Source of the DNA: a virus
Length of the DNA stretch: 35,110 bases
Direction: 5' to 3' (one strand)
IMG/VR virus record: IMGVR_UViG_3300046002_003616
Span: 1 to 35,110 of that record
A program made the translations under genes and the position numbers. Positions 3,086 through 27,328 of this stretch are shown in pieces. The notes beneath the pieces were generated by a model, which did no database searches, was not told the origin of the DNA, and saw nothing but the letters and a program-made list of their open reading frames with translations. The first letter of the stretch is position 1; every line of letters begins with the position of its first letter.

Positions 3086-3115
3086 TTGACAGAATGATGC
3101 ATTGTGAATTATATT
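3086..3115 (+). promoter_or_regulatory. Rightward early promoter upstream of the ribozyme operon
   Basis: TTGACA (3086-3091) is followed by TATATT (3110-3115, spacing 18), or alternatively AATTAT (3107-3112). It shares TTGACAG plus an ATGATGC...GTG spacer with the promoter at 1943. GCGTCAT (3074-3080) upstream and ATGATGC (3094-3100) form a one-mismatch inverted repeat around the -35 box, a possible operator. Inferred activity. Confidence 0.55.
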
Positions 3116-3148: not shown

Positions 3149-3424
3149 ATGAGCAACAACATCGCTGACCGCTACGCCCAAGTGAAAATGCAGATTGAGG
3201 CGCTGGAGGAGGAACTGAAGGGCATCAAGGCTTTGGCCGATGCCACCGGCCTTGAGGTGATCGACGGAGATACTTTCCGCCTGTCCATCAAGCCTTCCAG
3301 CCGCACCAGCCTAGACAAGGACATCTTGGCGCAGTGGTTGACTGAGGAACAGATGCAGGAGGCGACCAAGACCTCGACTTTCCTGCGCTACACCTACAAA
3401 GCGATTATGAAGAAGGTGGCGTAA
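3149..3424 (+). CDS. Small coiled-coil phage protein, 91 aa
   Basis: Start at ATG 3149, preceded by GGAGAGAC (3138-3145). The N-terminal 30 residues form a helix with heptad character (VKMQIEALEEELKGIKAL). A short GLEVIDGD strand turn follows, then RLSIKPSSRTSLD and a helical end. Small proteins of this layout (coiled coil, then a strand, then a substrate-like S/T-rich strand) are common among phages of alphaproteobacteria, but no function is known to me. A hammerhead-like ribozyme starts directly after its stop codon, so its mRNA 3' end may be made by self-cleavage. Confidence 0.78.
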   Translation: MSNNIADRYAQVKMQIEALEEELKGIKALADATGLEVIDGDTFRLSIKPSSRTSLDKDILAQWLTEEQMQEATKTSTFLRYTYKAIMKKVA

Positions 3425-3478
3425 AGTCGAAACGGGGTTCCGGCCCCGTCTGTCCGTAAGGCGGGCACTGATGAGACT
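3425..3478 (+). ncRNA. Hammerhead ribozyme, type II (open stem II)
   Basis: Every core element of a hammerhead is present in the right order. Stem II 5' strand AGTC (3425-3428). Core GAAA (3429-3432). Stem III CGGGG (3433-3437) pairs with CCCCG (3444-3448) around a TTCCGG loop, and A3432 pairs with T3449. Cleavage triplet GTC (3448-3450), so the predicted cut lies between 3450 and 3451. Stem I TGTCCG (3451-3456) pairs with CGGGCA (3462-3467), one G-U pair, loop TAAGG. Core CTGATGA (3468-3474). Stem II 3' strand GACT (3475-3478) pairs perfectly with AGTC. The element fits exactly between the stop at 3424 and the GGAGAGAC leader at 3481. Cleavage would leave the upstream mRNA ending in hairpin III and free the downstream message with a 5' hydroxyl. 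Activity is inferred from the match to the known motif. Confidence 0.88.
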
Positions 3479-3491
3479 ATGGAGAGACAAA

Positions 3492-3644
3492 ATGGCTACG
3501 AAACGTGGTCGCAAGGGCGTCGAGAAACAGTGGAACTTCTACCTGTCCAACGGCGAATGGTTTGGGATCTATACATACACCAAGCCGGAAATCGTCGAAC
3601 TGTTTCCTACGGCCAAGATTAAGAAAGATAGCGTGTATCTGTGA
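3492..3644 (+). CDS. Small basic hypothetical protein, 50 aa
   Basis: Not recognised. ATG 3492 has GGAGAGAC (3481-3488) upstream. The 50 residues begin with a basic stretch (ATKRGRKGVEKQ) and continue with aromatic strands (WNFYLSNGEWFGIYTYT) and a short end (KIKKDSVYL), giving the look of a small nucleic-acid-binding beta domain. It lies between the hammerhead ribozyme and a strong terminator-like hairpin, so its message would be a small self-contained unit if the ribozyme is active. Coding is supported by the leader and by clean spacing; function is unknown. Confidence 0.7.
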   Translation: MATKRGRKGVEKQWNFYLSNGEWFGIYTYTKPEIVELFPTAKIKKDSVYL

Positions 3645-3649
3645 TCATA

Positions 3650-3680
3650 GGGCGGGGAGAGATCCCTGCCCTTTGCTTTC
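3650..3680 (+). terminator. Terminator-like hairpin after the 50-aa gene
   Basis: GGGCGGGG (3650-3657) pairs with CCCTGCCC (3664-3671) through 8 pairs (one G-U), loop AGAGAT, followed by TTTGCTTTC. This fits an intrinsic terminator or attenuator, with an interrupted T tract. The following gene at 3692 would need read-through or its own signal. Confidence 0.55.
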
Positions 3681-4372: not shown

Positions 4373-4384
4373 GTCTCTTCTCAT

Positions 4385-4421
4385 AAAAAACCCCCTGCAA
4401 GTTACGACGCTGGCAGGGGGT
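4385..4421 (-). terminator. Intrinsic terminator upstream of the nuclease-like gene
   Basis: On the minus strand, ACCCCCTGC and GCAGGGGGT (4413-4421 and 4390-4398) form a perfect 9-bp stem with a 14-nt loop, directly followed by a run of six T (4390-4385). This is a textbook intrinsic terminator for the leftward operon, yet the nuclease-like frame begins right after it. Confidence 0.75.
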
Positions 4422-4441
4422 AAAGTCTATGAAGAGACAAA

Positions 4442-4461
4442 GGCAACGGGAGGATGTTGCC
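4442..4461 (-). terminator. Second hairpin in the same leader
   Basis: GGCAAC (4442-4447) and GTTGCC (4456-4461) pair perfectly around 8 nt, and on the minus strand TTTGTCTC follows. It may be a weaker terminator or part of a two-hairpin attenuator with the element at 4385-4421. Confidence 0.4.
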
Positions 4462-4483
4462 CGTGTCCCTTCTAGGCCATCAG

Positions 4484-11960: not shown

Positions 11961-11989
11961 CAGACCATCCTCTAGAAGTGGAGAGACAA

Positions 11990-12622
11990 ATGACACAAGA
12001 AAGCCTACAAAGAACGGCTGATTGGTATGCCAAACGCCGAGGAAAAATAACAGCTTCCAAGATAGATGCGGTCGTAGAGAGGCAGAAAAACGGTTCGTTC
12101 TACGCCAAGCGCGAGGACTACAAGAACCAGCTAATCCTAGAAATATTGACAGGCAACGTGGTTTCTGGGTTCACCAGTGTTGCGATGCAGCATGGCATTG
12201 ATACGGAGACAGAGGCGCGGGATGTATATTCAAAGACAATCTGGGATACTGTCACTGAAACAGACTTTGTTGATCATCCTACAATTAGCCGTGCTGGCGC
12301 TTCTCCTGACGGAATTGTGGGATCGGATGGTCTTCTCGAAATTAAATGCCCCAGCAGCGGAACCCATATCCAGACCCTGCGACGCGGAACTTATGACCCG
12401 AAATACTTTCCTCAGATGCAGTGGCAAATGGCCTGCACAGGACGCAAATGGGTAGACTTTGTTAGTTACGATCCCCGCCTTCCCGAAGCCTATCGCTTAT
12501 TTGTAGACCGTGTAGAGCGCGACGAACTGTGGATTTCTCAGGCCAATGAAATGGTTGAGACGTTCCTGAAGGAAATCGACGAAGAGATCGCTAATCTGCA
12601 CAAGAAGTTTGAGGAGGAATAA
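11990..12622 (+). CDS. YqaJ/lambda-exonuclease-type recombinase, 210 aa
   Basis: 5'-3' double-strand exonuclease that resects DNA ends for single-strand annealing. The ATG at 11990 follows GGAGAGAC (11980-11987); the upstream in-frame GTG at 11978 overlaps that leader. The fold markers are all present: W-x-x-x-R-x-G-K-I-T-A-S-K at the start, an early Gln/His region (AMQHGIDTETEARDVY), then AGASPDGIVG with Asp107, and GLLEIKCP with Glu117 and Lys119, the catalytic D-x(n)-E-x-K. YFPQMQWQMACTGRKW matches the rest of the core. It forms the classic pair with the ERF annealing protein two genes on. Confidence 0.93.
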   Translation: MTQESLQRTADWYAKRRGKITASKIDAVVERQKNGSFYAKREDYKNQLILEILTGNVVSGFTSVAMQHGIDTETEARDVYSKTIWDTVTETDFVDHPTISRAGASPDGIVGSDGLLEIKCPSSGTHIQTLRRGTYDPKYFPQMQWQMACTGRKWVDFVSYDPRLPEAYRLFVDRVERDELWISQANEMVETFLKEIDEEIANLHKKFEEE

Positions 12623-12796
12623 ATGGAAAAGATCATCCAGATATTTGCTTCCCCAGAGACACAAACAGATGATGCTTGGCTTTACGTTCTAACCGACAAA
12701 GGTAGGATTTTTGGCAATTGTTTTCCATTCCTCAAGTCTCATGAATGGGAAGAGGTATCATTGCCGTCGCAATTAAATAATGAAGAGGAGGAATAA
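12623..12796 (+). CDS. Small hypothetical protein between exonuclease and ERF, 57 aa
   Basis: Not recognised. ATG 12623 directly follows the exonuclease stop, with GAGGAGGAAT inside the end of that gene as ribosome-binding site; its own stop directly precedes the ERF ATG, again with GAGGAGGAATAA. The 57 residues look beta-rich (MEKIIQIFASPETQTDDAWL, then YVLTDKGRIFGNCFPF) with an acidic end (NNEEEE). The gap-free fit between two conserved recombination genes strongly supports coding. It may assist recombination, but nothing shows this. Confidence 0.7.
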   Translation: MEKIIQIFASPETQTDDAWLYVLTDKGRIFGNCFPFLKSHEWEEVSLPSQLNNEEEE

Positions 12797-13435
12797 ATGA
12801 CGTTATCAATGCCTAAATCGGTAGCGTCTGGCGTCGTGGCTGTGACCCGCGGCGTCAATACACTTTACCGCAGCGAGCGTAACAATTTTGCCGAATATAA
12901 CTATGTGTCGGTCGACAGCTTTTATGAGGCCCTTGGCCCTCTGATGGCCGAAGCTGGGATATTCGACATCATCAATGAGGTTAGGTCGGCTACGGACAAG
13001 GGATTTCTCTATTGCGAATATGAGATTTTCCTAGTCAGCGCAGAGGGGGAAATGTATGGACCTATTCGCACGAATGTCACTGTCAAAGCGCAGGGCCCTC
13101 AAGCTTACGCTTCGGCCAAAAGCTATGCGGAAAAATATTTCCTGCGCCAGATATTCAAGGTCCCCACTGGCGAGAAAGTTGATGCAGACATGCATGACAA
13201 AACTATTCTTCCGGATGTCCAGCCTCAGATCCATAAGATGGCCCCGGAGGCTTCGGCAGCTAAGCGCGATGAACTGATAAATGGCCTTTCCTCCTGTCAG
13301 ACGATTGATGATCTTCGGGCATGGGAGAAGGCAAATAATAATAGCGTAAAGCGTCGTCTATTAGACGAAGATGCTGAGGCTGTTATTGACCAGTATGAAC
13401 TGGTGAAGTCCACTCTAACCAAAAAGGTAGCATAA
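12797..13435 (+). CDS. erf: ERF-family single-strand annealing protein, 212 aa
   Basis: ERF-family ssDNA annealing protein that pairs resected strands in phage recombination. The start of the domain is EYNYVSVDSFYEALGPLMAE with GIFDIINEV. The family signature GPQAYASAKSYAEKYFLRQI is followed by FKVPTGEKVDADMHD, matching the S-A-x-S-Y-A-x-R-Y and tgDxDad pattern. A helical C-terminal tail (LINGLSSCQTIDDLRAWEKAN) is variable in the family. The length is normal. It is expressed with the YqaJ nuclease and the SSB-like protein, a complete lambda Red-like unit. Confidence 0.92.
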   Translation: MTLSMPKSVASGVVAVTRGVNTLYRSERNNFAEYNYVSVDSFYEALGPLMAEAGIFDIINEVRSATDKGFLYCEYEIFLVSAEGEMYGPIRTNVTVKAQGPQAYASAKSYAEKYFLRQIFKVPTGEKVDADMHDKTILPDVQPQIHKMAPEASAAKRDELINGLSSCQTIDDLRAWEKANNNSVKRRLLDEDAEAVIDQYELVKSTLTKKVA

Positions 13436-19410: not shown

Positions 19411-21432
19411 CTATTTTACCTGATCAAGAGCCTGAACGATATGTTCGTCGGGCACATCCATGAGCGGCTTTGTCTCATGGGCAATTTCATTGAATGCCCG
19501 TCTAGCCGCTCTCTCTAATTTGTTTAGACGCTTGGCCGGGTAATCGCGTTTATCAACACGGCCACCCGACTTGCGTTCTGTTCTTTCTTCGGATTTCTGT
19601 TCTTCGCCTGTCACTTTACCTACCGCGTCAATGTAAGCCTGCGCCGCAGCGCGTATTCTCTGCTCGCCTATTTCAGCCGGGGCCATGCCAACTTTTGCGT
19701 TGTATATGGCTTTCTGGAGATTTGCAGCCGCTCTAGCCGTCAACGGAGAAGACAGCGCTTTGGCCATCATGAAGTTGGCGGGAATAGACGCCGCCGCACC
19801 AGCCGCCGCATGCGGGAAGAACGGAGCGGCAAGTATCGTGGTGAACAACTGGGCCGCCTGTTGGACATTCGCTGTCTTGGAGACGTTTGTATACTGGCCA
19901 AGTTCTTTAAATTTGGACGATACCGTATTGATGTCCTCTAAAGCGTCTCTGACCGCATTGCCTTTTGGGCCAAACATTACGTCTTTGCCCATATCCGACA
20001 TTTTAGCGTAACCGGTAATAAACCGATCCGGGGAGAAATTGCCTTCCGGAGCCCTGCCAAGCGTTTCCACCAACCCAGACGTTACATGCTCCCAATCATG
20101 GGGCGGGATCGTCCTACGAGCTAGGATTAGGGCGTTTATATCACCCTTTGTCCCGGCCTGAGCCATGCGCTGAATGCGACCAAGAACCTGCTCAGGCGCG
20201 ACGTCACCTTCCAAGCCGACGATCTTAGCCAGTTTTTCACGGCGTTCGGCTACGGCTTTGGCCATGCTGTTGGCGCGATTAAATAGCTGTTGGGCGCGAG
20301 GTCCACCTGAAGCCATGACAGACGCCTGCAAATCATTTGTCAGGGCGCCATAGATAGACTTAAGCTCAGCCTTGCTAGTATTGGCCGGAAGCAAACCAGT
20401 GTCCAGCATTTCGCCAATGGTCGTGCGAAGGTTTTTGATGCCTTCATACGTCAAGCCATTCGGATTGGTCGCCGGGCCAATAGCCAGATTAATCGCTTCG
20501 CTTTTCCCCGGATCAAGGTCAGAAGCCAATCGCCTATCGGTGAGTTCCTGAACCGTCTTCGATAGATTTTGGAGAGGCGTTTTAGCCTCCGGATTTACAT
20601 GGCGGCCGACATCATCATAGGCGTCCCGCAGCATTGTTTGGGATTTGCCCTTCATCCAGTCAGTGATGCCGGATTTAGCCGCCGTTCCAGCCGTCGGAGC
20701 CGTTCCGGCGCCAAGGACATTATGGACGTCTTCCATTGCTTGGCCCATTTGGCCAACAGCTTTCTGAGACGCCTCAGTGACTGCCCCACCGCCGATGGGG
20801 ATAGCCTTTGATACCTGCGCCATAGCCTTCGGGACGCCGCTTTCAGAAGCGACGAAGTAGGGAAGGTCAACGCCAATCCGTTTGCCGGCCTCTAGCGTCT
20901 GAGCCATTTTCGGAGCAACAGCCGCCGCAGGAGACGCCATTACAGCGCCGGCAAATCGAGCGTAAGGCTCAGCCGCCGTTCCCTCAGTCATTTGCCCAGC
21001 AGCCTCAGAACCAACCGCAGGCAATACCGTCCGGCTCATAATCTGGGCTGGCGTTTTACCCGCTCCTGGCATAGCGGCAAATTCACCAACCGTTTCGGCA
21101 AACTTGCCCGGAAGCGTCTTACTCTCTTCGGACAAAGCCCGAACCGCCGGCTTGGCCATTTCTGTGGTTTCAGCCGACGTCGGAAACTTTATCAGAGGAT
21201 GTTCCGGCGTCTTGATGCCGATATACGGTTCAACAGCGCGGGCTACCGATTGGATATCACCGATGATGCCAGGAGCCGCAGCAACGCCCTTGGCTAGACC
21301 ACGGCCAAACCCAGCCGCAGCCTCAACATAAGGATCTGGTTCCTCATCCCACTGAATATCGGAAGGAGGAGCCTTGCTTTCCGATTTTGGGGCTTCCTCG
21401 TCCCAAACGACGTCTTTAGGATCAATCGGCAT
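19411..21432 (-). CDS. Internal virion/DNA-ejection protein, 673 aa
   Basis: Not assigned to a named family. The ATG at 21432 overlaps the end of the 1968-aa gene by 11 bp; a longer start at 21474 would run deep into it. The N-terminus carries two WDEE repeats (DVVWDEEAP and DIQWDEEPD), a pattern seen at starts of short-tailed phage ejection proteins. The rest is long, Ala-rich helix with a hydrophobic patch near the end (TTILAAPFFPHAAAGAAASI). It lies between the giant virion protein and fibre genes, as ejection proteins do. It probably travels with DNA and lines the trans-envelope channel; that is inference. Confidence 0.72.
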   Translation of the reverse strand: MPIDPKDVVWDEEAPKSESKAPPSDIQWDEEPDPYVEAAAGFGRGLAKGVAAAPGIIGDIQSVARAVEPYIGIKTPEHPLIKFPTSAETTEMAKPAVRALSEESKTLPGKFAETVGEFAAMPGAGKTPAQIMSRTVLPAVGSEAAGQMTEGTAAEPYARFAGAVMASPAAAVAPKMAQTLEAGKRIGVDLPYFVASESGVPKAMAQVSKAIPIGGGAVTEASQKAVGQMGQAMEDVHNVLGAGTAPTAGTAAKSGITDWMKGKSQTMLRDAYDDVGRHVNPEAKTPLQNLSKTVQELTDRRLASDLDPGKSEAINLAIGPATNPNGLTYEGIKNLRTTIGEMLDTGLLPANTSKAELKSIYGALTNDLQASVMASGGPRAQQLFNRANSMAKAVAERREKLAKIVGLEGDVAPEQVLGRIQRMAQAGTKGDINALILARRTIPPHDWEHVTSGLVETLGRAPEGNFSPDRFITGYAKMSDMGKDVMFGPKGNAVRDALEDINTVSSKFKELGQYTNVSKTANVQQAAQLFTTILAAPFFPHAAAGAAASIPANFMMAKALSSPLTARAAANLQKAIYNAKVGMAPAEIGEQRIRAAAQAYIDAVGKVTGEEQKSEERTERKSGGRVDKRDYPAKRLNKLERAARRAFNEIAHETKPLMDVPDEHIVQALDQVK

Positions 21433-24400
21433 AATCAACAGTCCCATCCGAGTATTCAACGACAGGGCGGCCATTAGACTTGCCGCGCCTTACAATCGTG
21501 CGGTCCTTGGAAACAGTCTTTTCTTCTTTTCCAATTTGGCCAGCCTTATGCTCAGCTTCCTTGCGCATGTAAGACTGGACAGGATGAGCTTGACCCCACT
21601 TGGCCATGTGCGCTTGGAAGTTGGCGTCTAAGCCACCATGCGCGGCGCGATAACGCTCCTGCTCTTCGGCCTGCGCCATGAGCTTTTGCTGTAGAGCTTG
21701 CTGTTTCTGAAGGACGCCCATGTTGTATTCACGGGTCCGGCTGACGTTGAACGTAGTGTCTTTCAGGAAGCTGATATCCGCATTCGAAATGCCGGCGCCG
21801 AGCTTACCGCCAGTGGCCGCAAGGATAAGCTTATTACCCTCCGCCCCAAGCCGTTCCGCCTGACCCAATGCCTCAGTATCAACCTGCGGTAGAATTTTCT
21901 TCAGACCGGGGAAATACTGCTCAGCTTCGGCAGTTCCGCTCTTAATCGCGTTAAGATATGGAGCGGCAATACCAAAGTCGACCTTCGGGTTTTTAATGAT
22001 GCTTTCAATCTCAGTCAGATTTTGCTGCATATCTCCGGCAGCCGCCGCGGATGCTTGGCCCTGATTGTAAAGATCCATCGGAGAACCTTCGCCAACCTTT
22101 TCGGTCAGAGATTTCCGCTTGGCTTCTACAATCTTTTCGCGGCGTTCCATCGCCTTGTCGGCGCGATCTTCAAACTGTTTCGCGTCTTCAGGAATGCCGA
22201 GTTCAGCAGCCTGTTTGGCTTTTTGACGGTTTGCCTGAATTTCCTGCTCTATGCGAGAAATCTCAGTGTCATACTGATCAGCGACAGGCTTAGTGGCCGC
22301 AGTTTTTTCGCCTTCAACCGGGATCGTCGGAGAAACCGCCGTAGGTGCTTCTTCCACAATCTTTGGAGCCTCTGGAGCTGTAGGCATAGCGGCCGTCGGA
22401 GGAGCAGTTTCATCAGCCGCCGCAGGCTTGCCACCCGCAGGGGAGCCACCAAGCAGTTCACGGCGAGCCCTTGCCTTGCGCATAAGCTCTTCAAGCTCAA
22501 AATTGCGCTTCTGCATCTCGCTCATGATGTTGGCGGCCTGAAGCTTCTTCATCTCCTCATTAGCCCGCATGGACTGAGAAGCCTGTAAAGCCTCAATACC
22601 CTGAAGCGAACCTTCGCCAAAAGCTCCAAGCGGGCTACGATTACGCGAAGCCGCCATCCCGGCGCCAGTCGCCATCAGATACATGGCGAGGTCACGGTTC
22701 ATGAGAGGCTTCATGCCGAACAGGCCACCCTGTCCGTCGTTGTCTCCGCCAAGCATTTTGCGCAGACCGCCAAAGCCGTCGGTGTCACCACCTTCGTCGC
22801 CACGATCCGTAGCTACAACGTGATCACCGCCAGCGGATCCTTTGTAATTCCCAAAGGCTCCAAAATCTCCTTTTAAAGCGGCTTCAGTCAACGCCCGGCG
22901 CTTGCCATAACCAAGCATGCCTTCAGGATGACCGGACTTGTAGCCTGCCGGACGCTCATAAGCGCCGTGGGCCTGCATGATGTCCTCAAGTGACGGGTTC
23001 TCGCCCTCAACATAGCGATGTTCAGGACGGCCTCTAAACTCCTTCAGACCAAAACCAAGCTGCTCTTTGAAGTCAGAAGCCTTGTCAGCAAGGGCCTTAC
23101 GAAGGGCGTCAGCCCTCTCTAGACGATGGCCAAACAGGCCGTAACCTGTTCCTTGATCATGAACCGCTGTCGGGTCAAAGGCGCTTTCAGCAGCCGCCGC
23201 AGGAACCAGAACGCTGGCCTCAGCCGGGGTCGCTCCATATTCGCCTGTCAGGATGTCCCAAGCTTCTTTGGCCCGGCCACCGCCTTCATAACCATGACGA
23301 ACCGCGCCGCCATGCGAGAAGCCAAGGAGATCGCCAAGATCACCGATATCCGGTCCTTGGAGATAGCCGGCGTCTTTGCCGCCAAACAGGTCATTTAACA
23401 GACCCTCAAACGGATTATCGCTTTCGCCAGCATCTTTAGCGGCTACACCCTTCACCGGGCCAAAGCCAGCGGATTTTTCCGCAATAACCTTATGACCCGG
23501 AGCCGGCTGGCCAACCGCCGTGGTTTTCACCATCGGGTGGCGCCCATCCTTTATCTCCGTAACCTTGTCCATTTCAGAGGTAGGTTCAGGGATAGACGGA
23601 GGAACATCGCCAAATCCCATCGGCTTGGCATTGCCCATCGGGGTCTGGACGTCGGTTCCAGCAACATTCAGCGGCGGAGACGTCGTTCCCGGAGTTCCTG
23701 GATCAGCCAGCGCCGGAAGCCCAGCGGCCTGACCGATTGTAAGGTCCATATCACCGGGACCGATATTGCGGCCAGCAAGACCTACACCCGGCATCGGCTC
23801 AACCGGATATTGATCTTTCATGTCCTTCATGGCCATCGGGCCACCGGACAGATCAAGCCCCTTACCAAAACTATCCTGAAGCGGGGGAGTTGTGGACGGG
23901 ATTGGTTTGCCAAACTTCCCATAGCCGCCAGCAAGAACAGACGGATCGCCGGGGCCATAAGGCTGGGCCGGTTTCAGATTGGAGAAGTAATCACCCTTCG
24001 GCCGGTCGGAAGCGACAGCCGTGCGAGACGGATTGTAGAAAATCTGCTGGCCAACGCGAACCGACGACGGGTCATTTAGGCCCTGACGCTCCCAAGGCTT
24101 GAAACGACCATGACGGCGCTGGCTAACAATGTCAGGGTTCATGAAGTGAGTGGCGCCGTGGGTCGGATCTTCAACCTCATTGGCTTTAATCTTTGACCAA
24201 TAATCAGCAAGCTCACGAACCTTCGGATCATTCGGGCTCATCGTGCGAGGATCACGCGATGTTCCTCGATTGCTGGGGTTCATCGGCTCATACTGACGAC
24301 GCGCAGCCATAACCTGCGACGGCGTCTCGCCATAGGTTCCGGCTTTCACACGGTTCCAAATGGAATGCAGGACTTCCTGCGGATGCATGACGTCTTCTTT

Positions 24401-27328
24401 GATGGCCAGTGCAGCGGCGCGAGCGCCTTCTTCAGTGTCTTGGAATTTACCCCAAAGACCTTTTCGGCCACCCTGCGCGTATCCATCACGAACCGCGCCG
24501 CCGTCAGCTTTATATTGAGGCTGGCTTTTGGAGAACGGATTGACATAGAATGAGGGCGACGAATAACCAGACACAGGAACCATAAATTTAAGGCCCTGCG
24601 GCGTCAGCATATCCGTCATCTGGTAAATATAATTAGACGGCGTAGCTGTCAGGTTTGGATATTTGTTTTTGAGATTGGCAAGATCAAGTTGGTTCTGAAG
24701 ATTTGCCTTCTCAACTTCATCCGCCGTAGCGTCAATTTGAGCTTGCGTCGGAACCTTTGCCGGTGGCGTTCCTGCGTAATTAGCGGATGCGCTGGCAATT
24801 GACGGCAAACCAAATTCTTGCGGCGTCAACTGACGCGGACCTATGTTTTGAGACGCACGAAGCAGAAGATTGTTATATTCCGGGCTTCCCGTATTTACGG
24901 CCGTCCAAGGCATACGGAAATTAGCAAGTGACTGAGGAATTTGGCGACCAAGACCACCCGGACCAAATGCCTGCTGGACGTTAATGCCAGTGTTGATCGG
25001 CGTATTAAAAGCGCCGACGCCAGCCGGAAGTCCATTGATTTGACCAGTCCCATAAGGATTAGTGATCGGTCCAAGTTGAGATCCAGTGATATTACCAAAA
25101 GCGGCTAACCCGCCACCATCGGCTTTTTCAACACGTCCACCATCGGCAAATAGTCCACCGAACATCTTCCCAATGCCGCCAAGGAAATCACCGTTGCCGG
25201 CATCAACCGGAGCAGCAACTTCCGGAGCAGAAGGCGCAGCCGTGCCACCGGAGAAAATATCGCTTACACCAGAGGTAAGTTTGTCAAAGAAACCCGGTTC
25301 TTTGGTTGCCTCTCCCTTGGCTGTGTCAGATTTGGCTTCACCGCCCCCGATACTGGCCGAAGCTTCAGACTTACCTTTGCCTCCAAGCTTAGGCATGGAT
25401 GGGGCGCCACCGCCTCCGCCACCACCGCCGCCACTAGATCCCTTAGCGGCGCCCGGAAGACCCGGAACATATCCAAGATCAGGCGTCTGAGGCTTATGCG
25501 TCGGAATATCCTGAACCGGAAGAATAGCGGACGCGACTTTTGGATTAGACAGAAGACCATATGGAGGCTTCTTCGACATTTCGAGGAAGTCTGACTGATC
25601 AGGCAGCATACCGCCATCGGCGCGTTCTTCGCGCTTGTGGTGTTTTACTTCAAAAGGCTCAAGCTCTTCTTCCTCAAGCCGAACGCCAGGGGAAACCCAA
25701 CGCTGTCCAATCTTCTGATATTCTTCGTATGGAGTGAATAAATCTCCCAACCCACCAGCCGACGAAGATGATGGAGGCGGGAAATTGGGATTTGTCTGGT
25801 AGGCAACCGATGAAAGATCAGTAATGCCAGTTTCTGGCGCCGCTTCACCTGTGTAGGTGTAAATCGGAACCATTTTCTGCTGGCTTGCGCCACCATCTGC
25901 CCGCTCTTGACGGTCCATTTTAATGCCAAGCAATCCGCCGAGATCAATTGCCTCGTCAGGATTTCTAGCCGCTACGTCCTGAGCCATAGGTCCAAGGCGC
26001 TTCGGAGGCATAGGCTCGCCAGTTTCCTTAGCGCGCTTTACGTCAGACTTATAGTCATACGCATAGATCGGATCGCCAGTTTCGGGATCTTCGCCAACTC
26101 GATCAATATTGGTCTTAGCCCGTTCATCCGAAAATAATCCAAGGCCGCCGATAAGGCTCATAATCGAACCTAGTGACGAACCTATGCTACTTCCGCCACT
26201 TTGCTGCTGATTAGACGAACCATAGCCAAATCCAGACGTATTTGTCGTTCCGCCAAGACCCGGCGCAAGACCACCAAGCCCAGCCATAAATGCGGTCTGC
26301 ATATACGGGTAGGACTGCGCAGCCATCCAGTTGCTGTAGTTCTGATTAAGCTGCTGCTGATCAAGCTGCTGTTGAAGCTGGCCAGTTCCAAGCAATGCCT
26401 GAAGGCCCTGAAGCTTAGCTTGCTGGGCCTGCGTTCCAAGCTGGGCAGTCGAATAAGCAGCCTGTTGGGCAGCCTGAATAGCCTGTTGCTGTTGCTGATT
26501 ATATTGGGCAAGAGCCTGCGCATACTGCTGCTGGCGAGCCTGAAGGCCCTGTCCCTGCTGCTGCTGGAACATAGCATTTGCGCGAGCAGCTTCGGAAGCA
26601 GCAACACCAAGACCCTGCTGCTGCTGTTGCTGAAAAGCCGCAAGAGCGTTTTGATAGCCCTGCTGCCTCAAATTGCCGAGAACTTGGTTCTGCGAAAGGT
26701 TCTGCTGGCCAGCAAGCATAGCGCGGGCCGCGCCGCTTCTATCGCCGCCAAATGCTCCAGAACGGATAGCCTCCGCCTGCTGCTGTTGCATTTGCTGAGC
26801 ATTTTGCTGCTCAATAGCTGCCTGAGTAGCGTTGATAACCTGTTGCTGGTAGGGGTTATAATACTGGTTTACAGCATCGGCGCTGTAAGTAAGCGGAGCA
26901 GTTTCCAGATATTTCTGGAGACGAGGATCATAATACTGGGCGACATTTGCTTGGCTATATGTGACAGGAAGGTTGTTCACCGCTTCCTGCATATACGGGT
27001 TAGCGTATTGCTGAACGGCAGCCTGCGAAAAGTTTGACGGCGACGACAGATTGTATGCTTGGGCGGCTAGATTTGTCGCTTGATCAATGTAGGGCTGGGC
27101 GGCCCCTACAGCTTCACGAGCGCCCTGCATGGCCGCAAGCTGATCCTGCGTAAAACCAGCAAGCGTCTGTCCAGTGTAAGGTTGATATGGAATGGCGCCA
27201 ACATTCGACCCAGCCTGCAAAACAGACATGAGGTAGTTATAGGCCATGGGGTCCGGCGAATACGTCGAAGTCGTATTCTGGAAGCCAAACTGATTGCCGC
27301 TTGAAGATGTTCCGCCACCGCCGCCCAT
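21422..27328 (-). CDS. Giant multi-domain virion protein, 1968 aa, with internal S74-like and lysozyme-like domains
   Basis: AAGGAAT precedes the ATG. Parts in order: a Gln/Ala-rich coiled region (about 100-340), an S74-like chaperone segment (about 396-470; FSDERAKTNIDRVGE, LGPMAQDVAARNPDEA), linkers carrying ADGG-type motifs near 475, 570, 733, 942 and 1340 (such as KADGGAVRDGYAQGG and SHGGAVRHGYEGGGR), a tail-lysozyme-like domain (about 1353-1480; TPAEASVLVPAAAAESAFDP, with a likely catalytic Glu, and GTGYGLFGHRLERA), and a helical C-terminus with ISNADISFLKDTTFNVSRTR. This looks like a fused peptidoglycan-cutting ejection protein. An S74-like unit in mid-protein is unusual. Confidence 0.8.
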   Translation of the reverse strand: MGGGGGTSSSGNQFGFQNTTSTYSPDPMAYNYLMSVLQAGSNVGAIPYQPYTGQTLAGFTQDQLAAMQGAREAVGAAQPYIDQATNLAAQAYNLSSPSNFSQAAVQQYANPYMQEAVNNLPVTYSQANVAQYYDPRLQKYLETAPLTYSADAVNQYYNPYQQQVINATQAAIEQQNAQQMQQQQAEAIRSGAFGGDRSGAARAMLAGQQNLSQNQVLGNLRQQGYQNALAAFQQQQQQGLGVAASEAARANAMFQQQQGQGLQARQQQYAQALAQYNQQQQQAIQAAQQAAYSTAQLGTQAQQAKLQGLQALLGTGQLQQQLDQQQLNQNYSNWMAAQSYPYMQTAFMAGLGGLAPGLGGTTNTSGFGYGSSNQQQSGGSSIGSSLGSIMSLIGGLGLFSDERAKTNIDRVGEDPETGDPIYAYDYKSDVKRAKETGEPMPPKRLGPMAQDVAARNPDEAIDLGGLLGIKMDRQERADGGASQQKMVPIYTYTGEAAPETGITDLSSVAYQTNPNFPPPSSSSAGGLGDLFTPYEEYQKIGQRWVSPGVRLEEEELEPFEVKHHKREERADGGMLPDQSDFLEMSKKPPYGLLSNPKVASAILPVQDIPTHKPQTPDLGYVPGLPGAAKGSSGGGGGGGGGAPSMPKLGGKGKSEASASIGGGEAKSDTAKGEATKEPGFFDKLTSGVSDIFSGGTAAPSAPEVAAPVDAGNGDFLGGIGKMFGGLFADGGRVEKADGGGLAAFGNITGSQLGPITNPYGTGQINGLPAGVGAFNTPINTGINVQQAFGPGGLGRQIPQSLANFRMPWTAVNTGSPEYNNLLLRASQNIGPRQLTPQEFGLPSIASASANYAGTPPAKVPTQAQIDATADEVEKANLQNQLDLANLKNKYPNLTATPSNYIYQMTDMLTPQGLKFMVPVSGYSSPSFYVNPFSKSQPQYKADGGAVRDGYAQGGRKGLWGKFQDTEEGARAAALAIKEDVMHPQEVLHSIWNRVKAGTYGETPSQVMAARRQYEPMNPSNRGTSRDPRTMSPNDPKVRELADYWSKIKANEVEDPTHGATHFMNPDIVSQRRHGRFKPWERQGLNDPSSVRVGQQIFYNPSRTAVASDRPKGDYFSNLKPAQPYGPGDPSVLAGGYGKFGKPIPSTTPPLQDSFGKGLDLSGGPMAMKDMKDQYPVEPMPGVGLAGRNIGPGDMDLTIGQAAGLPALADPGTPGTTSPPLNVAGTDVQTPMGNAKPMGFGDVPPSIPEPTSEMDKVTEIKDGRHPMVKTTAVGQPAPGHKVIAEKSAGFGPVKGVAAKDAGESDNPFEGLLNDLFGGKDAGYLQGPDIGDLGDLLGFSHGGAVRHGYEGGGRAKEAWDILTGEYGATPAEASVLVPAAAAESAFDPTAVHDQGTGYGLFGHRLERADALRKALADKASDFKEQLGFGLKEFRGRPEHRYVEGENPSLEDIMQAHGAYERPAGYKSGHPEGMLGYGKRRALTEAALKGDFGAFGNYKGSAGGDHVVATDRGDEGGDTDGFGGLRKMLGGDNDGQGGLFGMKPLMNRDLAMYLMATGAGMAASRNRSPLGAFGEGSLQGIEALQASQSMRANEEMKKLQAANIMSEMQKRNFELEELMRKARARRELLGGSPAGGKPAAADETAPPTAAMPTAPEAPKIVEEAPTAVSPTIPVEGEKTAATKPVADQYDTEISRIEQEIQANRQKAKQAAELGIPEDAKQFEDRADKAMERREKIVEAKRKSLTEKVGEGSPMDLYNQGQASAAAAGDMQQNLTEIESIIKNPKVDFGIAAPYLNAIKSGTAEAEQYFPGLKKILPQVDTEALGQAERLGAEGNKLILAATGGKLGAGISNADISFLKDTTFNVSRTREYNMGVLQKQQALQQKLMAQAEEQERYRAAHGGLDANFQAHMAKWGQAHPVQSYMRKEAEHKAGQIGKEEKTVSKDRTIVRRGKSNGRPVVEYSDGTVDYAD

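Follow-up and report, generated by a model that had tools for sequence, protein, structure and literature searches.

The space between two small genes on a phage contig is occupied by a predicted type II hammerhead ribozyme (positions 3425–3478, plus strand) that recurs in other phages together with the gene it precedes. The contig is the IMG/VR virus record IMGVR_UViG_3300046002_003616, and the whole stretch analysed (positions 1 to 35,110) is referred to as the window. Strong support for identifying the element as a complete type II hammerhead comes from an independent covariance model, from compensatory changes in its stems and from a conserved association with the downstream gene. The element is interpreted as a functional ribozyme that marks where the common transcript of two phage genes is to be cut and yields separately stable messages, and a probability of approximately 0.68 is assigned to this interpretation. 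The motif, the compensating changes, the conserved placement and the conserved partner gene are visible in the aligned copies; cleavage, the chemistry of the ends it would leave and its consequences for stability and translation are predicted. The comparative data fit a separation into two mRNAs in which hairpin III would form the upstream 3' end.

Divided into its parts, the element reads AGTC GAA A-CGGGGT-TCCG-GCCCCG-T C / TGTCC-GTAAGGC-GGGCA CTGATGA GACT, where the slash marks the predicted cut. No base of the hammerhead consensus is missing, the order is that of type II (GAAA, H17, CUGAUGA), and the closing loops on stems I and III together with an open stem II are those of a type II element. 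Stem II is formed by its 3' strand AGTC (3425–3428) pairing with its 5' strand GACT (3475–3478). The first core segment is GAAA (G12 A13 A14 A15.1; 3429–3432), and stem III (3432–3449) folds as seven pairs (ACGGGGT/TCCG/GCCCCGT) with a UCCG loop of the UNCG type. Alignment to the hammerhead consensus positions the predicted cleavage site 3' of C17 (C3450), between 3450 and 3451, with the triplet GUC. Stem I follows at 3451–3467 (TGTCC GTAAGGC GGGCA) with a 7-nt terminal loop, GUAAGGC, of the GUNANGC type, and the second core segment, CUGAUGA (C3–A9), lies at 3468–3474; both core segments are invariant in alignment A3. The required C3 U4 G5 A6 N7 G8 A9, G12 A13 A14, A15.1–U16.1 and H17 correspond to CTGATGA 3468–3474, GAA 3429–3431, A3432–T3449 and C3450, and the core-adjacent pairs 10.1–11.1, 1.1–2.1 and 15.1–16.1 are intact (G3475–C3428, T3451–A3467 and A3432–T3449). 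The first-pass annotation had reported all core parts, the cleavage triplet and the three stems in order, and its coordinates and cleavage site proved exact. The minimum-free-energy fold of 3422–3482 is exactly this three-way junction (−22.4 kcal/mol); this energy is ordinary (z −1.44), and energy z-scores, being unimpressive, were set aside as evidence. Longer flanking context can give alternative folds, which counts against the preferred interpretation.

A covariance model (R1) trained on 12 hammerheads from other contigs, with the window left out, matches 3424–3484 at 80.6 bits (E 3.6e-21). The E-values of such models are rough, and the gap between this score and the runner-up anywhere in the 35-kb window (9.5 bits) is solid. 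A structural type II finder, for which the core and all three stems are obligatory, returned 3425–3478 as its sole match; neither this finder nor R1 identified further hammerheads within the window, and looser core patterns elsewhere occurred at chance level. Among 200 Markov-shuffled windows there were five weaker structural matches and none with stems as good. The compensatory changes for which the annotation had suggested looking in relatives are present: in A3, 9 of the 18 pairs change on both sides, including three pairs of stem III, 99.4% of cells are paired, and none of 500 shuffles gave as good a covariation score. Stem II of orthologous copies shows such two-sided changes at two of its four pairs, and the copies tied to the downstream gene carry AGTC/GACT, GGTC/GACC or GATC/GATC. 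In pair-count controls the named structure also did better than its shuffled and slid counterparts.

In the covariance-model search proposed in the annotation, the Rfam model RF02276 (Hammerhead_II) found the element at 32.6 bits (E 3.2e-5 for 211 nt and 0.0053 for the whole window), and this lies below the gathering score of 37 bits, which is a curation threshold and not a defining structural feature. At the default gathering threshold Rfam gives no match to the ribozyme, and the match appears only when the threshold is relaxed. A sequence that merely resembles a hammerhead, by decay or by chance, and is inactive would be consistent with such a score. The score is typical of the subclass, however: when the Rfam type II model was run on ten records, seven had matches, and only one of the 13 listed matches passes the cut-off. 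The R1 E-value, the fully intact core positions and the compensatory changes also argue against an inactive remnant, which is regarded as extremely improbable. The Rfam cut-off thus misses a well-defined subclass that lacks the pseudoknot.

This subclass, termed class A, comprises hammerheads in which stem II has 4 bp and the stem I segment measures 16–19 nt, the window included. A strict core pattern matched at least 120 stretches in IMG/VR, and the structural finder, applied to the matches listed and other loci, yielded about 205 distinct type II hammerheads. A second scan of viral contigs, aimed at the subclass of the window, was complete at 68 stretches; the two scans overlap in part and some surveyed contigs are near copies, so that the figures are not fully independent. 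A loop I–tail pseudoknot of at least four pairs is possible in 2 of 71 class A copies compared with 106 of 139 others among the matches listed. In the window the longest Watson–Crick match between loop I and the tail is 1; the feature is common in the family and not obligatory, and its absence is a point against the preferred interpretation, since it may bear on the cleavage rate at low magnesium. One candidate noticed by eye, pairing of UCCGU with AUGGA, was rejected, as it would require opening stem I. Of the 57 class A copies whose stem I segment is 17 nt long, 38 have the loop GUNANGC (first scan, with loop I unspecified; among the matches listed). An unpaired A directly 5' of stem II, at a base left unspecified in the pattern, is found in 79 of the 80 class A copies of the second scan, and in the window this is A3424, with which the stop codon TAA ends. 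We infer that the unpaired A and loop I form a tertiary contact that replaces the pseudoknot. Many of the hammerheads stand in rows on one contig; in L008, L016, L022 and L033 such rows contain up to about ten, spaced by a few hundred bases and all on one strand, with one behind nearly every small gene.

Upstream of the ribozyme, a gene of the plus strand (3149–3424) with the Shine-Dalgarno sequence GGAG encodes a 91-aa protein to which no function is assigned, and its stop codon TAA (3422–3424) abuts the ribozyme. Relatives of the gene are found in L003–L005, where the proteins are 47–48% identical, and in L142–L171. The protein is predicted to consist of a long helix and a beta element; it weakly resembles the C-terminal part of phage PD-(D/E)XK/RecE-type exonucleases (phrog_434, E 0.028), and Foldseek gives a weak match to a Tsukamurella phage endonuclease (E 0.0075). 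A sigma-70-like promoter (TTGACA-18-TATATT; 3086–3115, plus strand), identified by its match to the consensus only (11 of 12 positions), is predicted to drive the upstream gene, the ribozyme and the downstream gene. The downstream gene, ORF50 (3492–3644, plus strand), encodes a 50-aa protein that likewise has no assigned function; it has homologs behind hammerheads, and comparison with known folds gave no convincing match. Its Shine-Dalgarno-like GGAG lies at 3481–3484 on the plus strand, and other copies follow the same spacing rule. The earlier label of early genes is plausible for the flanking pair, given the sigma-70-like promoter. Sequence and protein searches of named phages and plasmids returned nothing similar. 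An ATG within the core CTGATGA (3471–3473) is in frame with the ATG of ORF50 (3492–3494) and would add seven residues, and the leader of relatives such as L131 carries a further in-frame ATG (ATGGAGATTGATATG).

In the proposed mechanism, RNA polymerase would start near 3086–3115 and read through the 91-aa gene, the ribozyme and ORF50, and the RNA, once folded, would self-cleave at 3450/3451. This would leave an upstream mRNA that extends 26 nt past its stop codon and has the stable hairpin of stem III and a 2',3'-cyclic phosphate at its end, and a downstream mRNA that begins with a 5'-hydroxyl and the stem I hairpin, its Shine-Dalgarno site freed from the ribozyme fold. Each predicted cut half folds with its own end hairpin. 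From the general features of bacterial mRNA decay, both new ends would be expected to slow exonucleases and 5'-end-dependent decay. The outcome would be two separately stable messages from transcription that is not stopped. A scan detected no terminator-like site at 3425–3478, where stem III is followed by CUGUCCG and not by a U-run. Self-cleavage has been shown for comparable clusters of phage hammerheads, both in vitro and in E. coli (PMC3088659), which counts in favour of cleavage between the two genes.

The annotation had noted that the ribozyme fills the space from the stop codon to the next leader, and this placement turned out to be general for phage type II hammerheads. Among the matches listed, the stop codon of an open frame lies within 6 nt of G12 in 72% of cases compared with 7.5% of random positions at the same loci, and in the second scan the same placement was seen in 59 of 77 cases against 8.9% of random positions and 20% on the opposite strand. 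This placement also suggests that the ribozyme may mainly switch on the downstream gene, with translation of the upstream gene timing both the cut and the translation of ORF50. The uncut fold would block the ribosome site 3' of stem II, and a ribosome terminating on the upstream gene would cover stem II and GAAA. Such a switch is consistent with a stop codon that abuts the ribozyme in the window and in most copies, with a conserved unpaired A that is the last base of that codon, and with a Shine-Dalgarno site that begins 3 nt after stem II and is unpaired in the predicted fold of the cut downstream half. The close packing may reflect compaction only, though, and the start codon lies farther away in many copies (up to about 60 nt), so that a role mainly as a switch is considered rather unlikely. 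Ribosome coupling at the abutting stop codon is reasonable either as a rival to cleavage into two stable messages or as an addition to it, and genome compaction could account in part for the tight packing at stop codons.

Relatives of ORF50 were collected from IMG/VR contigs by protein alignment alone, without use of the hammerhead in the search. One contig, L002/L127, is nearly identical to the window (99.9% over 6.3 kb) and was counted apart. Ten other contigs encode relatives, and a type II hammerhead stands directly upstream in nine of them; in the exception, L135, the preceding stop codon runs straight into the leader. The window protein is 35–39% identical to homologs behind hammerheads (L128–L132, and L133–L137, which are nearly identical to one of these), and since six of the contigs (L132–L137) are near copies the ten represent about five lineages. 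The upstream gene, the hammerhead and ORF50 are kept together in L128, L130 and L131, whose upstream proteins exhibit 23–29% identity to the 91-aa protein in alignments and 32% locally (E 7e-5 for L128). A search of bacterial genomes found no relative of ORF50.

All ten relatives also carry a second hammerhead at the ORF50 stop codon, and the paired hammerheads lie about 217–220 nt apart. With nine contigs carrying a hammerhead at both ends of the gene, it is conceivable that a short RNA is released and that a host RNA ligase closes it end to end, giving a circular mRNA. The ends produced by hammerhead cleavage are those used by RtcB-type ligases, which counts for such a product. The window has the 5' hammerhead only: at the ORF50 stop the place of the second is taken by a 10-bp hairpin followed by TTTGCTTTC (3649–3672, plus strand), which a scan reports as terminator-like. 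A 2011 study that sought spliced or circular products detected none (PMC3088659), and circularization is judged highly unlikely here.

The neighbours of the ORF50 cassettes differ between phages on both sides, and the presence of the ribozyme is patchy. This pattern would also be expected if the element were mainly a gene-border sequence shared for swaps of small genes by homologous recombination, with RNA cleavage secondary. The window phage encodes an exonuclease and an Erf-like single-strand annealing protein (11978–13435, plus strand), two phage recombination proteins that together could promote the swapping of genes. The compensating stem changes preserve RNA pairing and not DNA identity, and a pure DNA homology signal would need none of them, which leaves recombination as the main role very improbable. 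Division of a common transcript into two stable messages remains the preferred interpretation.

The family of the upstream gene offers a further comparison. In L003–L005 the gene order of the window is preserved without the ribozyme and ORF50, and the two flanking genes share the overlap TAATG. When the upstream gene was searched for more widely, 30 loci (L142–L171) were obtained, and five of them have a hammerhead. On a tree of 25 distinct upstream proteins, six with the ribozyme including the window, five changes are needed, and at least four gains or losses are forced by well-supported branches; presence is not clustered on the tree (206 of 500 shuffles were as low). These repeated changes and the absence from the syntenic L003–L005 indicate that the ribozyme is dispensable on an evolutionary scale, which counts against the preferred interpretation. 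Among the 19 distinct proteins without a ribozyme, 15 have a GC-rich hairpin within 1–8 nt of the stop codon, 13 with a UNCG loop. These hairpins often read GGGGC-UNCG-GCCCC, and stem III has the same body in four of the six copies of the hammerhead, with one U–G pair in the window. One such pair is L142 and L143, with upstream proteins 97% identical, where the hairpin AAAGGGGCUACGGCCCCUUUCUUUU of L143 stands in the place of the L142 hammerhead. In L143 a TTGACG-18-TATAAA sequence was seen by eye after the hairpin; a promoter and terminator scan of this locus flagged neither.

A hairpin in the place of the ribozyme fits a role of the ribozyme in making a hairpin 3' end, and convergence is possible because such hairpins are common behind phage genes. 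Hammerhead and plain hairpin may be interchangeable 3'-end devices, with the ribozyme repeatedly built around the one stem-loop that follows the stop codon, or decaying to it, and self-cleavage replacing termination where the next gene stays co-transcribed; this is advanced tentatively, at somewhat less than even odds. Among other upstream genes, mixed families with and without a hammerhead number 32 of 205 at the loci at hand, where sampling is thin. The natural alleles with a plain hairpin allow a direct comparison of ribozyme and hairpin behind the same gene.

Elements of this kind have been known in phages since 2011, when Perreault et al. described natural type II hammerheads clustered around single genes in prophages and proposed, as is done here, that long phage transcripts are divided by them into mRNAs of gene length (PMC3088659). 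The element in the window resembles these hammerheads (RF02276) in its open stem II and its core; they are often clustered and flank single small phage genes. What sets it apart is its subclass, in which stem II has 4 bp, loop I is GUNANGC and the 4-bp loop I–tail pseudoknot is absent; most members fall under the Rfam cut-off. Of the 18 consensus hammerheads assayed in 2011, four were inactive (PMC3088659), which counts against the preferred interpretation. In haloviruses HF1 and HF2 a hammerhead lies 13 nt upstream of the start codon of a helicase gene, and a transcript 5' end was mapped near the cleavage site (PMC3088659). The window shares with these the short distance to a start codon; the HF1/HF2 element has a variant core for which an adaptation to high salt has been proposed, whereas that of the window has the standard core and lies between two genes. 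A further comparison is with an intrinsic terminator or a 3'-protective hairpin that follows a stop codon. Stem III matches, in position and form, the hairpin found after this gene in relatives, but no U-run comes after it, and the 3' end would arise by predicted self-cleavage while transcription would continue.

The role of bacterial and phage hammerheads has been described as open, with flanked genes that are small and not conserved (PMC6155905), and the reason for their gene associations as unknown (PMC10085705). Here a short ribozyme goes with a small gene that is conserved. The conserved hammerhead–gene–hammerhead cassette and the alternation of hairpin and ribozyme appear to be new; neither was found in the literature searched, outside which most subscription journals lie, and priority is not certain.

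Two other features of the window were recorded. On the minus strand, a 1968-aa ORF (21422–27328) has an N-terminal part that matches the DNA ejection protein family phrog_4287 and a remainder without a match. At 4383–4466, also on the minus strand, an anti-hemB match (26.4 bits, below the cut-off of 49.5) has a strong hairpin and a T-run at its end and is probably a terminator only.
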